A stretch of DNA of 64,000 nucleotides, taken from positions 104,211 to 168,210 of the forward strand of contig CACIAQ010000001.1 in the NCBI GenBank assembly GCA_902584635.1. The letters are read 5' to 3'. Below are positions 29,991 through 36,441 of this stretch, one piece after another. The DNA comes from an uncultured Alphaproteobacteria bacterium (GTDB lineage Bacteria > Pseudomonadota > Alphaproteobacteria > Rhodobacterales > Rhodobacteraceae). How positions within the stretch are numbered: the stretch's first letter is position 1; every line of letters starts with the position of its first letter. Both the position numbers and the translations under genes were made by a program. A model generated the notes under the pieces. The model was not told the origin of the DNA and made no database searches. It was given only the letters and a program-made list of their open reading frames with translations.

Positions 29991-30035
29991 CATCTATCTT
30001 TTAAATGTTAAAGATTGATGACAATTTGATGAAAA
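29991..30035 (-). promoter_or_regulatory. Candidate Pho box plus -10 for sRNA A
   Basis: Minus strand TTTTCAT-CAAA-TTGTCAT-CAAT-CTTTAAC (11-bp repeats), ATTTAAAAGA, TAGATG. Confidence 0.6.
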
Positions 30036-30198: not shown

Positions 30199-31032
30199 AT
30201 GTTGCAAAATAGAAGTCAGACACACCCTGTGTTTTCATTCGCCGATGGAGAAATGGGTGTAATTTCCAATAAAATAATCCGCTACTTAGAAAAATTAACG
30301 GGTCAACCGCGTATAGAAAAACTATATTTTGACTATGTAAATGATAATCTAAATCCAGAATATTTTTGGTCAGATGCGCTTGACCGACTGCGTATCGAAC
30401 TAGACATCCGTCGAGAAGTTTCAAATGGAATAATGGCATCCATACCGTCTACTGGACGGGTCGTGACCATCGCTAATCATCCATATGGAGTCATAGATGG
30501 ACTTGCCTTATGCTCAATTATGGCCGAAGTGCGGCAGGACTATAAAATCATTACCCACAGGGTATTGAGACAGGCGCCAGCGGTAATGGACAAAATCCTG
30601 CCAATAGATTTTGCAGAGACGAAAATTGCGCTTAAAACAAATATGGAGTCTCGCCGTGGAGCTTTGGAACACCTCAGAAATGGTGATGCACTTATAATCT
30701 TCCCAGCAGGCGCCATATCATTAGCGCCAAATATATTTGGAACTGCAAGTGATGCGCCGTGGAAAACATTTGTTGCGAAATTAGCGTTGCAGCCTGACAC
30801 AACTACTATTCCGTTCTACTTTGAGGGACGTAATTCAGCGTTATTTCAAATTGTGAGAAAAATAAGCTTTACGCTTGGTTATTCACTTATGTTTAGGGAA
30901 ATTTGTAGAAGAATGGGGACAAATTTAACTGTCACGATGCGTCCTTCTATACACAGTTCCAAACTAGCTGAAATGGAAAACCGGAATGTGATCACAGAAT
31001 ATCTCAGGCGCCAAACCTATGATTGGTCTTAG
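30199..31032 (+). CDS. PlsC-like lysophospholipid acyltransferase
   Basis: VVTIANHPYGVIDGLAL (NHxxxxD), NGDALIIFPAGAIS; GGAG RBS. Confidence 0.85.
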   Translation: MLQNRSQTHPVFSFADGEMGVISNKIIRYLEKLTGQPRIEKLYFDYVNDNLNPEYFWSDALDRLRIELDIRREVSNGIMASIPSTGRVVTIANHPYGVIDGLALCSIMAEVRQDYKIITHRVLRQAPAVMDKILPIDFAETKIALKTNMESRRGALEHLRNGDALIIFPAGAISLAPNIFGTASDAPWKTFVAKLALQPDTTTIPFYFEGRNSALFQIVRKISFTLGYSLMFREICRRMGTNLTVTMRPSIHSSKLAEMENRNVITEYLRRQTYDWS

Positions 31033-31232
31033 GCTATAAATCAGAGCTGGGTCAATACAGCGCCAAACAATCAGTAGGTTACCAACATTAGCTAAAGAAA
31101 ACGAAACTAAAAGGTAGATTTATCTAACCCGAATTAGAGATGGTTATTTTCTCCTTTGGCCTTTTCCCAATAAAACCAAGCGCTCTGAGAAACTTGGACT
31201 TTAGACTGAATGAGAAAATTGATCACTAAAAA

Positions 31233-31278
31233 AATTCATAATAATGTTATCTTTTTGTATTATTTATCTGAATACAAT
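31233..31278 (+). promoter_or_regulatory. Candidate Pho box plus -10 for sRNA B
   Basis: AATTCAT (31233), ATGTTAT (31244), TTGTATT (31255), ATCTGAA (31266), 11-bp phasing; TACAAT 31273-31278, 11 bp after TTGTATT. Confidence 0.55.
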
Positions 31279-31283
31279 TAGAT

Positions 31284-31335
31284 CTCTTTTCCCTCAAAGG
31301 GAGAATCTAGTGCCTGTAGAGTTCTCCCTTTTTTT
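31284..31335 (+). ncRNA. Candidate Pho-regulated small RNA B (about 50 nt)
   Basis: After the -10: CTCTTTTCCCTC, then 10-bp terminator hairpin; no ORF; next gene has its own separate Pho box. Confidence 0.5.
31296..31335 (+). terminator. Strong intrinsic terminator
   Basis: AAAGGGAGAA (31296-31305), 16-nt loop, TTCTCCCTTT (31322-31331) followed by more T: perfect 10-bp stem. Confidence 0.88.
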
Positions 31336-31379
31336 CTGAAAAAGAAATAATATCGTGGATATCTTATGAGGGTATAAAA

Positions 31380-31408
31380 TTGTCAAAAATTTATTAGGTT
31401 TCTGTCAC
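31380..31408 (+). promoter_or_regulatory. Candidate Pho box upstream of phnD copy 2
   Basis: TTGTCAA (31380) and CTGTCAC (31402), 22 bp apart (2 x 11). Confidence 0.55.
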
Positions 31409-31457
31409 AAAAGCGTTAATGAACTCTTTCATGGTAAGGAAAAGCAAGGAGTTAATT

Positions 31458-32336
31458 ATGAAATCTGTTATTAAAACTATATTGTTAATATGCTTATCCC
31501 TAGGGATAGGCTCAGTAGTTTCAGCGAAAAATTACAAAATGGCTGTTACTGATATTGAAGGAATGGATGCTCTTATCTCTGAGTGGGGACCATTTAAGGA
31601 AGCTTTAGAAAAAGCCACTGGTGATACTTTTGAATTTTTTGCCGTAAGCAATCAAACTGCAACAGCAGAGGCTTTGAGAGGAAAGAAATTAGATTTTGCA
31701 ATAACAGGTCCTGCGGAGTATGTGGCAATTAACAAGCTTACAAATTCTCAAGCAATGATTGCGATTGCGAGACCAGATTATTACTGCGGTATTGTCGTTA
31801 AGACAGGAGTAGGAATAATGAAGATGGAAGATTTAAAAGGTAAAGCAGTCTCTTTTGCTAAGCCTGGGTCGACATCTGGACATTTTTGTCCGATGCAAGT
31901 AATGATGGACCATGGAGTAGACCCAATGAAAGACATCAAAGTAATCCATACAAAGAAGGCATTGCAACATGCTGGGCTAGAGAGAGGTGATACAGCGGCA
32001 ATTGGTGTTCGAATTAGCTCTTGGATCAAATATAATAGAACACCCGAAAATCAAGGTCAGTTCAAGGTGTTAGCTAGGTCGGGTGATCTGCCCTACGATA
32101 TGATGATGGGTGGAGGTCATTTGACGCAGGCTGAAATAGATAAAGTAACCAAGGCAATGAAAGATAATGAAGATTCGCTGATTGCTGGAATTTTAGCTGG
32201 GCTTGATGATAAAGGTAAGCCAGCCAATGATAAATATATTGGCACAAGATTGCTGGAAGTTAATGATTCGGACTATGATGTAGTAAGAGCCATGTACAGG
32301 ACAGCTGGATTGCCCGAATTTGATATTCAAGACTAA
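31458..32336 (+). CDS. PhnD-family phosphonate/phosphite-type ABC transporter substrate-binding protein (copy 2)
   Basis: Signal peptide; LRGKKLDFAITGPAEYVAI, AVSFAKPGSTSGHFCPMQVM; AAGGAG RBS; start at MKSVIK. Confidence 0.92.
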   Translation: MKSVIKTILLICLSLGIGSVVSAKNYKMAVTDIEGMDALISEWGPFKEALEKATGDTFEFFAVSNQTATAEALRGKKLDFAITGPAEYVAINKLTNSQAMIAIARPDYYCGIVVKTGVGIMKMEDLKGKAVSFAKPGSTSGHFCPMQVMMDHGVDPMKDIKVIHTKKALQHAGLERGDTAAIGVRISSWIKYNRTPENQGQFKVLARSGDLPYDMMMGGGHLTQAEIDKVTKAMKDNEDSLIAGILAGLDDKGKPANDKYIGTRLLEVNDSDYDVVRAMYRTAGLPEFDIQD

Positions 32337-32353
32337 TCCATAGATGCATGGAG

Positions 32354-32379
32354 AGCGCTCTATGCTACTATAGGGCGCT
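32354..32379 (+). other. Intercistronic stem-loop between phnD2 and phnC2
   Basis: AGCGCTCTAT-GCTACT-ATAGGGCGCT, 10-bp stem with one G-U. Confidence 0.75.
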
Positions 32380-32385
32380 TGATAT

Positions 32386-33153
32386 ATGATTGATTTAGAA
32401 ATAAAAGATTTAAAAAAAAGCTTCGGTAGCGAATCTGTTTTAAAAGGTCTTTCTTTTAGCGTTAATTCGCAAAGTTTATTAGCGATAATTGGTTCTAATG
32501 GAGCAGGTAAATCTACCTTGCTGAGATGTTGCAGCCGCTTAATTGAGCCATCGAGTGGAAGTATCAAAGTTTTTGACAAGGAAATAACAAATTTAAATAG
32601 CCATCGGCTACGACAAATACGAAGAGATGTAGGGTTTATTTTTCAACGGCATAATCTAGTTCCTCGACTGAGTGTGTTGTCTAATGTTATTCATGGAGAT
32701 TTTGGAAATATCACTAGCGGTTTAAAGCGAGTAACACGATGGTTTCATTTTCTGGCACCCCAAGCTTCTAGGTCAAGGGCAATGGATTGCCTACGGAAGG
32801 TGAATTTAACTCACCTTGCGATGAAACGAGTTGACACCCTTTCAGGAGGACAATCTCAAAGAGTTGCAATAGCAAGAGTTCTGATGCAAAAACCCAAATT
32901 ATTACTTGCTGATGAGCCAGTCGCTAGCCTTGACCCAGTAGCTGCAAAAACAGTTATGGAGCTTCTCACAGAACTATGTAAAAAAGAAAAGATGACAGTC
33001 ATATTTACCTCCCACAATGTTGAAGATGCAGTAAAATATTCTGACAAAGTTTTAGCTTTAAAAGACGGTGAAATAAGTTTCTTCAAAGCAAGTAAAACGA
33101 TAGATCCAAAAAAATTAATTGCACAATACGACAGCTCTGTAAGATTCGTTTAA
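32386..33153 (+). CDS. PhnC-family ABC transporter ATP-binding protein (copy 2)
   Basis: GSNGAGKSTLLRCCSRLIEP, FIFQRHNLVPRLSVLSNVIHGDFG, LSGGQSQRVAIARVLMQKP. Confidence 0.93.
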   Translation: MIDLEIKDLKKSFGSESVLKGLSFSVNSQSLLAIIGSNGAGKSTLLRCCSRLIEPSSGSIKVFDKEITNLNSHRLRQIRRDVGFIFQRHNLVPRLSVLSNVIHGDFGNITSGLKRVTRWFHFLAPQASRSRAMDCLRKVNLTHLAMKRVDTLSGGQSQRVAIARVLMQKPKLLLADEPVASLDPVAAKTVMELLTELCKKEKMTVIFTSHNVEDAVKYSDKVLALKDGEISFFKASKTIDPKKLIAQYDSSVRFV

Positions 33154-33169
33154 TTGATAGAAACAGAAA

Positions 33170-34003
33170 ATGAAAACCCCAAAAAGATTTGAACAAATCT
33201 CATCCTTTCAATATATATCCATTATTGTTTTCTTTTTGATTATGGTGTGGGCTCTTGATGGCTCCGGTTTTTCCTTTAGCAAATTATTTGGAAGCAGTGA
33301 GTACATTGGTAGGTTTCTCAGTGAAGCCTTTCCTCCTATTAGCGAGCATAGATTAAGCTGGAATGATTTTAACAGGTATATTTTGCTCTTAATTGAGACG
33401 GCTCAAATGGCAATTTTTGGTACGTTTTTAGGAATAATTGTAGGTTTTTTATTTGCGCTGATGGCCTCAAGAGGCTTATTCGGAAATAGCATCCCGGCAA
33501 GAATGCTTCAAGTAGTTGCAAAGTTTCTAATAACATTCATGCGAACAATACCTGATTTAGTATGGGCAATAATATTTGTAATGGTTGTAGGGCTTGGAGC
33601 TTTTGCAGGCACATTAACGATTGCGATAGACACAATAGGATTTGTAGGTAGATTTTTTGCTGAAGAGATGGAGGATGTTGAAAGGAGTGCAGCTGAAGGT
33701 ATAGAGAGTAGTGGAGCGTCAAAGCTAGACAGTACTTTTTCAGCAATCATTCCTGCCGCCATGCCTGGCTTTATAACGACATCGCTTTTCGCCTTAGAAA
33801 AGTCTGTAAGAGGATCAGTAGTGTTAGGTCTAGTTGGTGCTGGTGGAATCGGAATGGAATTAAACAGTCTTTTTAATTGGATGGCTTACGATAGAGCTGT
33901 TATTGTAATAGGCTTAATGTTTGTGTTAATATTGTTCGTAGAACAAATTAGTAGTTATGCTCGCTTAAAGATACTTGATGGATCTGTTAAGAGCGGGAAA
34001 TAA
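33170..34003 (+). CDS. PhnE-family ABC transporter permease (copy 3)
   Basis: LITFMRTIPDLVWAIIFVMVVG, EKSVRGSVVLGLVGAGGIGMELNSLFNWM. Confidence 0.93.
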   Translation: MKTPKRFEQISSFQYISIIVFFLIMVWALDGSGFSFSKLFGSSEYIGRFLSEAFPPISEHRLSWNDFNRYILLLIETAQMAIFGTFLGIIVGFLFALMASRGLFGNSIPARMLQVVAKFLITFMRTIPDLVWAIIFVMVVGLGAFAGTLTIAIDTIGFVGRFFAEEMEDVERSAAEGIESSGASKLDSTFSAIIPAAMPGFITTSLFALEKSVRGSVVLGLVGAGGIGMELNSLFNWMAYDRAVIVIGLMFVLILFVEQISSYARLKILDGSVKSGK

Positions 34004-34029
34004 CGCATTTGGAAAAGAAAGATAGAAAA

Positions 34030-34695
34030 ATGTCAAAAACAGATACGGCGTATCAGTATTGGAATACTGAATGGGATAATAAAATTGTTACTGAGAAATG
34101 GACTGTAGCTGAGCCAGAGGTGCTCGCAACTTTCGAAAATATCGGGCCATCTAAAAAGGTTTTAGATCTCGGTGCCGGGGTAGGCCGGCATAGCCTTCCT
34201 TTTGCGGAAAACGGTTGTGAGGTTACTGCTTTTGATGCAGCAGAAAGTGGACTTGCTTCTATTGAGCAGTTAGGAAAGGAAAAAAGTATTTCTATAAAAA
34301 CAGTACTTGGAAAAATGGATCAATTACCCTTTGCTAATGATTACTTCGATCACGTGTTATCGTGGAATGTGATTTACCATGGTAATCACAATATTTTAAT
34401 CGATACTGTAAATGAGATAAAAAGAGTACTGAAACCTGGAGGCACGTTTCATGGAACCATGCTCCCTAAGAAAAGAATTGACCTTTTAAAAAGTGAATTC
34501 GATTGCAAAGAGATTTCCACAAACACTTGGATTGTCAATTCAGACTCTGAAAGCGATAAGGCTCATCCTCATTATTATTGTACTGCCAACGAATTAACGT
34601 CGATATTTAAGGATTTTGAATTTAATCGGCTTACTATGCAAGAACATGATAAACCAAACTCATGGCATTGGCATCTGATGGTCGAAAAGCTGTAG
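34030..34695 (+). CDS. Class I SAM-dependent methyltransferase
   Basis: VLDLGAGVGRHSLPFAENGCEVTAFDAAESGL, LPFANDYFDHVLSWNVIYH, IKRVLKPGGTFHGTML; start at MSKTD. Confidence 0.9.
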   Translation: MSKTDTAYQYWNTEWDNKIVTEKWTVAEPEVLATFENIGPSKKVLDLGAGVGRHSLPFAENGCEVTAFDAAESGLASIEQLGKEKSISIKTVLGKMDQLPFANDYFDHVLSWNVIYHGNHNILIDTVNEIKRVLKPGGTFHGTMLPKKRIDLLKSEFDCKEISTNTWIVNSDSESDKAHPHYYCTANELTSIFKDFEFNRLTMQEHDKPNSWHWHLMVEKL

Positions 34696-34769
34696 CTTAA
34701 ATGAGTAAATTAGGGCGCCTTTTTATAGTATACAAACATAAGAGGTCCGCCTAATTCAACCGCATAACA

Positions 34770-35576: not shown

Positions 35577-35613
35577 AAAACTGGAAAATGCTGACCTTAA
35601 AAGGAGATCTCAG

Positions 35614-36441
35614 ATGAAACCATTTAAAATTGGGGCGGCAATGCCAATAAGTGAAGTTGAAAATCATAAACCTTGGTTATTCGATGATGAAAGAGATTTA
35701 GAACTTCAAGATTTCGTCAGCAATGAAATTTACATAAACGAAGATTGGAAAAATATTGCTCAAACTGCTAAAAAGAAACTGAAAGGGTTTAATGGAAGAC
35801 TGGGGGTGCATGGCCCATTTTGGGGTTTAGACTTTTCTTGCTTTGACTCTGAGGTTGCAAAAGTAATCTCTAAAAGACTTTGTCAAGGGGTAGAAGCAGC
35901 AGCAGAAACCGGTGCGATACAAATGGTTATGCACTCACCATTTGATAACTGGCACGAATTTAATAGATTCAATATCTACAATGGTAAGCGAGCATTGGAA
36001 CAAGTCTTTGACGTAGTAGCAAGAATTATTTCTCCAGCTCTAAAGATTGCAGAAAATGAAGGAGTCGAGTTGGTTATGGAAAATATTAAGGATATCAATC
36101 CACAGACTAGAAGGCAGCTAGTTGAGAGCATTGAATCTAATTCTCTAAAGCTTTCGATAGATACTGGGCATGCACATATAGCAGGGCTTGCTTCTAAAGC
36201 CCCACCCGTCGATATTTTTGTTGAAGACGCAGGCAATCTATTGAAGCATGTTCATATTCAAGATGGTGATGGTTATGCAGACCGACACCAAGCACCCGGC
36301 AATGGAACAATTAATTGGCATTCTGTTTTCCAATCCCTAAGTTTCTTAGAGAGCAACCCACATTTAATCCTAGAACTCAAAAACTATGGAGAAATACCAA
36401 TAGCATTTTCTTATCTCAGCGAAAGAGGGCTGGCTTTTTAA
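35614..36441 (+). CDS. Sugar phosphate isomerase/epimerase family (TIM barrel)
   Basis: LGVHGPFWGLDF, VELVMENIKDINP, SIDTGHAHIAG, HVHIQDGDGYADRHQAPGNGTINW; AGGAG RBS. Confidence 0.85.
   Translation: MKPFKIGAAMPISEVENHKPWLFDDERDLELQDFVSNEIYINEDWKNIAQTAKKKLKGFNGRLGVHGPFWGLDFSCFDSEVAKVISKRLCQGVEAAAETGAIQMVMHSPFDNWHEFNRFNIYNGKRALEQVFDVVARIISPALKIAENEGVELVMENIKDINPQTRRQLVESIESNSLKLSIDTGHAHIAGLASKAPPVDIFVEDAGNLLKHVHIQDGDGYADRHQAPGNGTINWHSVFQSLSFLESNPHLILELKNYGEIPIAFSYLSERGLAF

Follow-up and report, generated by a model that had tools for sequence, protein, structure and literature searches.

CcsR (the cuckoo RNAs) and AbcR are anti-Shine-Dalgarno small RNAs (sRNAs) of Alphaproteobacteria. The unit described here lies on the plus strand at 31233-31335 of the window, i.e. 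the whole 64 kb stretch of DNA that was analysed. Like CcsR and AbcR, it combines a C/U-rich segment that could base-pair with ribosome-binding sites and an intrinsic terminator, and the family related to it at genus level is multicopy as well. It differs from them in its arrangement and in lacking an Rfam match, and its target and Hfq binding are putative. With PhoB-regulated Pho-box promoters it shares half-sites repeated every 11 bp ahead of a possible -10, but its own array is marginal and the clear array belongs to the following gene, phnD2. With leader-terminator attenuators it shares mutually exclusive hairpins before a gene, but it contains neither a leader peptide nor a ligand domain, and a separate promoter lies between terminator and gene. 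No Rfam family was matched at or above its gathering threshold anywhere in the window, and our literature searches returned no report of such a unit. We tentatively propose, at slightly less than an even chance, that the unit encodes a short self-contained plus-strand RNA of about 50-84 nt, which would be of antisense type.

The intrinsic terminator occupies 31296-31335 on the plus strand, with a 14-pair stem (31296-31309/31317-31331), one bulge (G31321), a loop GTGCCTG, seven T and a stability of -16.6 kcal/mol. The leader word CTCTTTTCCCTC (31284-31295) precedes the stem, which reads AAAGGGAGAA-TCTA / TAGA-(G)-TTCTCCCTTT (AAAGGGAGAA at 31296-31305, TTCTCCCTTT at 31322-31331) and is followed by the seven-base T-run (31329-31335). 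The strings quoted in the preliminary description are all present where it placed them. The ten pairs of its “perfect 10-bp terminator” are real, but the stem is longer, with TCTA/TAGA added across the one-base bulge. A 55-nt RNA including the terminator folds at -16.6 kcal/mol (z of -3.05 against chance). The two strands of the window contain 72 hairpin-plus-T sites, of which this one is the third strongest, and the first three stand well above the others. A simple terminator scan missed the hairpin, probably because of the bulge and the long inner loop. The hairpin is stable and G+C-rich, the T-run follows it directly on the plus strand, and the opposite strand has no T-run. Also in agreement with the first reading, the unit contains no conserved ORF: a small ORF was considered and rejected, since a short frame, from ATG 31244, shifts between genomes at the T-run.

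In this genome the upstream neighbour of the unit is a plsC-like acyltransferase gene (30199-31032, plus strand; PF19576; NF052615 below its cut-off), which resembles OlsF/GlsA. It is the next upstream plus-strand gene, 264 nt away, and the terminator could in principle end its transcript. This is highly improbable: genomes with an empty site keep plsC without the unit, and in three relatives (L043, L044 and L049) two minus-strand genes, for a PlcP-like metallophosphoesterase and a glycosyltransferase, stand between plsC and the unit. These genes are listed as ORFs for L044, and L043 and L049 have a gap of equal length by BLAST. The unit of the three relatives is thus in a gap between divergent genes, and because the opposite-strand genes separate it from plsC, the terminated transcript must start within that gap. 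The preliminary description had named a terminator serving the plsC transcript only as the outcome that would overturn its reading, and in these three loci, with plsC cut off, this outcome does not apply. Its idea of a self-contained short unit gains from the same arrangement, as well as from the strong terminator and from the match of the 3' half to an sRNA-like family (see below).

A PlcP-like gene is found at the matching place in the genomes G004, G003 and G007. The extra plcP-like and glycosyltransferase pair (2470-4439 of L044, minus strand) stands beside the cassette in four genus genomes and is absent there in the window. A second PlcP-like gene, 61-65% identical, is present in most genus genomes. 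The copy of this genome (G000:C1:101633-102400, outside the window) has one in-frame TAG, which may be a sequencing error or mean that the gene is broken. According to two published reports, PlcP and its partner glycosyltransferase carry out lipid remodelling in marine bacteria under phosphorus limitation (PMC4796936, PMC8231724), and by analogy the L044-type pair may remodel lipids here.

A plus-strand block at 31220-34690, made up of the unit-bearing leader, phnD2, phnC2, phnE2 and a methyltransferase gene, has the unit at its 5' edge. In two genomes of the same genus (G006 and G011) the block is missing together with the unit, while the flanks match at 99% and 95% identity up to 31220 and again from 34690. 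Besides, similar AATGAG(A/T)AAATT words stand on both sides. This comparison indicates that 31220-34690 is a recent, horizontally acquired cassette. Its gene phnD2 (31458-32336, plus strand) encodes a phosphonate/phosphite-type substrate-binding protein (Pfam PF12974, E 2.2e-35). The stretch from phnD2 to the methyltransferase gene (31440-34700) has 89% DNA identity in four single-cell genomes (L045, L046, L047 and L052; three labelled Pelagibacteraceae, one Alphaproteobacteria). The match breaks off sharply in the phnD2 start region and where the methyltransferase gene ends. These SAR11-labelled copies of the operon have other leaders, without the unit. The sharing of the operon with SAR11-labelled single-cell genomes is a sign of transfer between lineages, and in a SAR116-labelled genome (L050) the phnD protein is 73% identical. 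The unit was found in 6 of 22 genus genomes, and because every one of the six carries phnD2, we regard it as linked to the cassette; the genus has a seventh phnD2 copy (G005), which a contig end truncates.

The same facts bear on the main rival explanation, in which the terminator marking the 5' cassette edge is a relic of whatever gene stood before phnD2 in a donor genome, or an insulator that protects phnD2 against leakage from upstream or from a divergent promoter, and no discrete RNA has a function. We consider this possible, with rather low confidence. The position at the cassette boundary, the strict linkage to the cassette and the different leaders of the SAR11-labelled copies fit it well, as does the strong Pho promoter that phnD2 possesses downstream. 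Conservation points the same way: in five genomes 10 of 120 sites of the unit vary, which is not below the variation at the cassette's third codon positions, and with no excess over these positions conservation adds no support for selection on the unit. On the other hand, no donor gene end is recognisable, and only about 76 bp separate the boundary from the stem. A search of 385 sampled genomes of Alphaproteobacteria for a donor of the leader gave nothing more than short AT-rich matches, and no relative of the leader, the hairpin or phnD2 turned up in phage records or viral contigs. Finally, the 3' module is like that of small stand-alone RNA units.

These stand-alone units came to light in a search with the leader DNA, which found a second locus of the genus (G019:C6) with 84% identity over 50 nt of linker and terminator. 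From this locus a multicopy sRNA-like family was recovered, with about a dozen copies in types I-III (for example G019:C6:38342-38436 and G000:C81:30-130). Its loci (L104, L105, L106, L107, L108, L109, L110, L111, L115, L116, L117 and L120) are confined to one genus among the genomes sampled. The members carry UGUCGUU near the 5' end, an AAUAUGA...UCAUAUU hairpin in types I and II, the linker UUUUUUCC(U)UUC(A)ACAGGGAG and a terminator. When types I and II were aligned, with N placed by hand in gaps (a procedure that favours the structure), four terminator pairs showed changes in both partners, and sliding the structure along the alignment gave far worse results. The family thus appears to be structured, with covariation supporting its terminator. 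Against Rfam at E <= 1 its loci matched nothing but tRNA and, in a single case below threshold, tmRNA. When the family covariance model R1 was run with stricter filters on samples of 298 and 385 genomes, none from outside the genus reached E <= 0.05.

The unit matches R1 at 31255-31334 (plus strand) with 28.8 bits, which equals the score of clear but divergent members, and it was re-found under the same filters. The similarity is in the 3' half. When this half was shuffled, 0 of 400 sequences reached the real score, so the signal of the unit comes entirely from there; for the 5' half, which gives 2.5 bits alone, 232 of 400 shuffles scored as high. Like the type I members to which the 84% identity over 50 nt refers, the unit has a pyrimidine-rich linker, UUUUCC(U)UUC, followed by a GGGAG... 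terminator. It differs from the family in lacking the 5' UGUCGUU motif, the upstream conserved block and the AAUAUGA/UCAUAUU hairpin, its 5' half being unrelated. Its location differs too: the unit belongs to a phosphonate cassette, while tRNA-Tyr is found upstream of several family copies and some have resolvase genes nearby. Full membership was rejected, as the 5' half is no better than shuffles; the comparison indicates instead that the unit shares the 3' module of the family. Terminator palindromes raise the apparent similarity between the two. In the 22 genus genomes GGGAGA..TCTCCCTTTT hairpins occur only at the unit and at one sRNA-like locus.

The pyrimidine-rich linker UUUUCCCU (31287-31294, within the region 31287-31305, plus strand) can pair with AGGGAGAA (31298-31305) in the 5' arm of the terminator. 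The preliminary description noted a competing hairpin of this kind, TCCCT-caa-AGGGA, which is real and extends further than noted, to 8 pairs (-8.3 kcal/mol). In folding of partial transcripts it forms, and the complete terminator displaces it. A conditional attenuator can be built on this, in which a promoter at 31240-31285 drives the phnD2 leader and some factor sets read-through by the balance between UUUUCCCU/AGGGAGAA and the terminator. The early formation of the alternative hairpin speaks in its favour, and so does the minimum-energy fold, where pairing of the linker with the ribosome-binding region of phnD2 is also possible. We nevertheless hold such an attenuator to be quite unlikely. 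The terminator is twice as stable (-16.6 versus -8.3), neither a peptide gene nor a known riboswitch is present in the leader, and the whole-leader fold is not better than shuffles (z of -0.78). Moreover, the matching pairing of linker and terminator arm is possible across the genus sRNA-like family, whose units are, as far as seen, not leaders of a nearby gene. Because the pairing recurs in a stand-alone family, the alternative hairpin alone is no argument for attenuation, and that role is not needed to account for it. Conditional read-through is therefore possible but unnecessary, since a far better Pho array of phnD2 lies beyond the terminator.

In a duplex-energy target search over 13 local genes the best candidate was a sugar-phosphate isomerase gene at 35614 (-12.7 kcal/mol), whose ribosome-binding region (window 35600-35614) offers 11 contiguous possible pairs with AGAUCUCUUUU of the unit. 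This candidate was set aside, as in most other genomes the linker reads CTCGTTTCC and part of this pairing is lost. A Pho-like array is also seen upstream of the isomerase gene.

We then consider the promoter. The unit has a weak Pho-like array in 11-bp steps at 31233-31272 (plus strand), consisting of AATTCAT (31233-31239), ATGTTAT (31244-31250), TTGTATT (31255-31261) and ATCTGAA (31266-31272). The candidate -10 TACAAT (31273-31278; TATTAT in L043) follows 11 bp after the half-site TTGTATT. The spacing of the half-sites before this -10 fits a Pho promoter, but the score is marginal: as a three-repeat array it reaches 5.6 and ranks 61 of 127,942, with a shuffle p of 0.02-0.03. The weights of the half-sites were approximated from the general CTGTCAT consensus, so that ranks are more reliable than scores. 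The array TTGTCAA/TTATTAG/CTGTCAC/GCGTTAA of phnD2 (31380-31419, plus strand), downstream of the terminator, ranks 7 of about 127,900 with both 3 and 4 repeats, and 0 of 2000 shuffles were as good (p < 0.0005). The separate repeats that the preliminary description gave to phnD2 are thus strong, while those of the unit are weaker than it presented them, and Pho control of the unit is only weakly supported.

The start site it placed near 31284 is also less clear. An inverted repeat TTGTATT/AATACAA (31255-31277), missed at first reading, has TTGTATT as its left arm (31255-31261), and TACAAT overlaps its right arm (31271-31277). It is predicted to form a stem, which could be a 5' hairpin of the RNA or part of the promoter region. 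A start near 31285 would give an RNA of about 50 nt whose first 12 nt are single-stranded, and the Pho-like array would then be correctly spaced. A start near 31250, which comparison with the related RNAs makes possible, would use TAATAAT (31239-31245) as -10 and give about 84 nt with a 5' hairpin, linker and terminator as in the relatives. In that case the array would overlap the promoter or start and could not work as a normal Pho box, so the two starts are mutually exclusive readings. In either case the promoter is weak and AT-rich. We also tried the substitutions in L043 as a guide, where TACAAT becomes TATTAT; this keeps a -10, but the inverted repeat re-forms as a different hairpin, and the choice is not decided by it.

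A neighbouring minus-strand unit (30035-29932) has the same layout with better support. It combines a strong Pho array at 30007-30035 (rank 6), the word UUUCCCUCCC and a terminator stronger than any other in the window, with UUUCCCUC between array and terminator, and it is conserved in six related loci. In L043, L044 and L049 a second, partial copy lies about 1.2 kb away (e.g. L044:137-253), in which a UUUCCCUYCC block is well kept. By analogy, this unit makes short Pho-linked RNAs in the region more plausible, without proving the plus-strand case.

In conclusion, the earlier interpretation is partly supported. We still favour a short RNA because of the strong terminator, the start within the gap in three relatives and the 3' match to a structured family. 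Transcription would start in the gap and end at 31335; a start near 31285 would yield about 50 nt, one near 31250 about 84 nt including the TTGTATT/AATACAA hairpin. The 3' module, i.e. the UUUUCCCUC linker and the GGGAGAA...TTCTCCC terminator, may have arrived or been assembled together with the phnD2 cassette. The product would be a small antisense-type RNA acting by its pyrimidine-rich, anti-Shine-Dalgarno-like linker, probably with Hfq, and as a side effect phnD2 would be insulated from upstream transcription. The gene hfq is present in this genome and in 15 of the 22 genus genomes, most of which are incomplete. More specifically, an acquired phosphonate cassette might carry its own sRNA, in which the 3' module of a resident family was joined to a new promoter to give a post-transcriptional regulator under phosphate limitation; we regard this fuller version as unlikely. 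Phosphonate uptake by marine Alphaproteobacteria has a bearing on phosphorus cycling and methane release. The comparison exposes an uncatalogued, structured and multicopy sRNA-like family in one marine genus, which is directly testable, and if it is true that acquired transporter cassettes bring a small RNA with them, regulation would move along with the genes.
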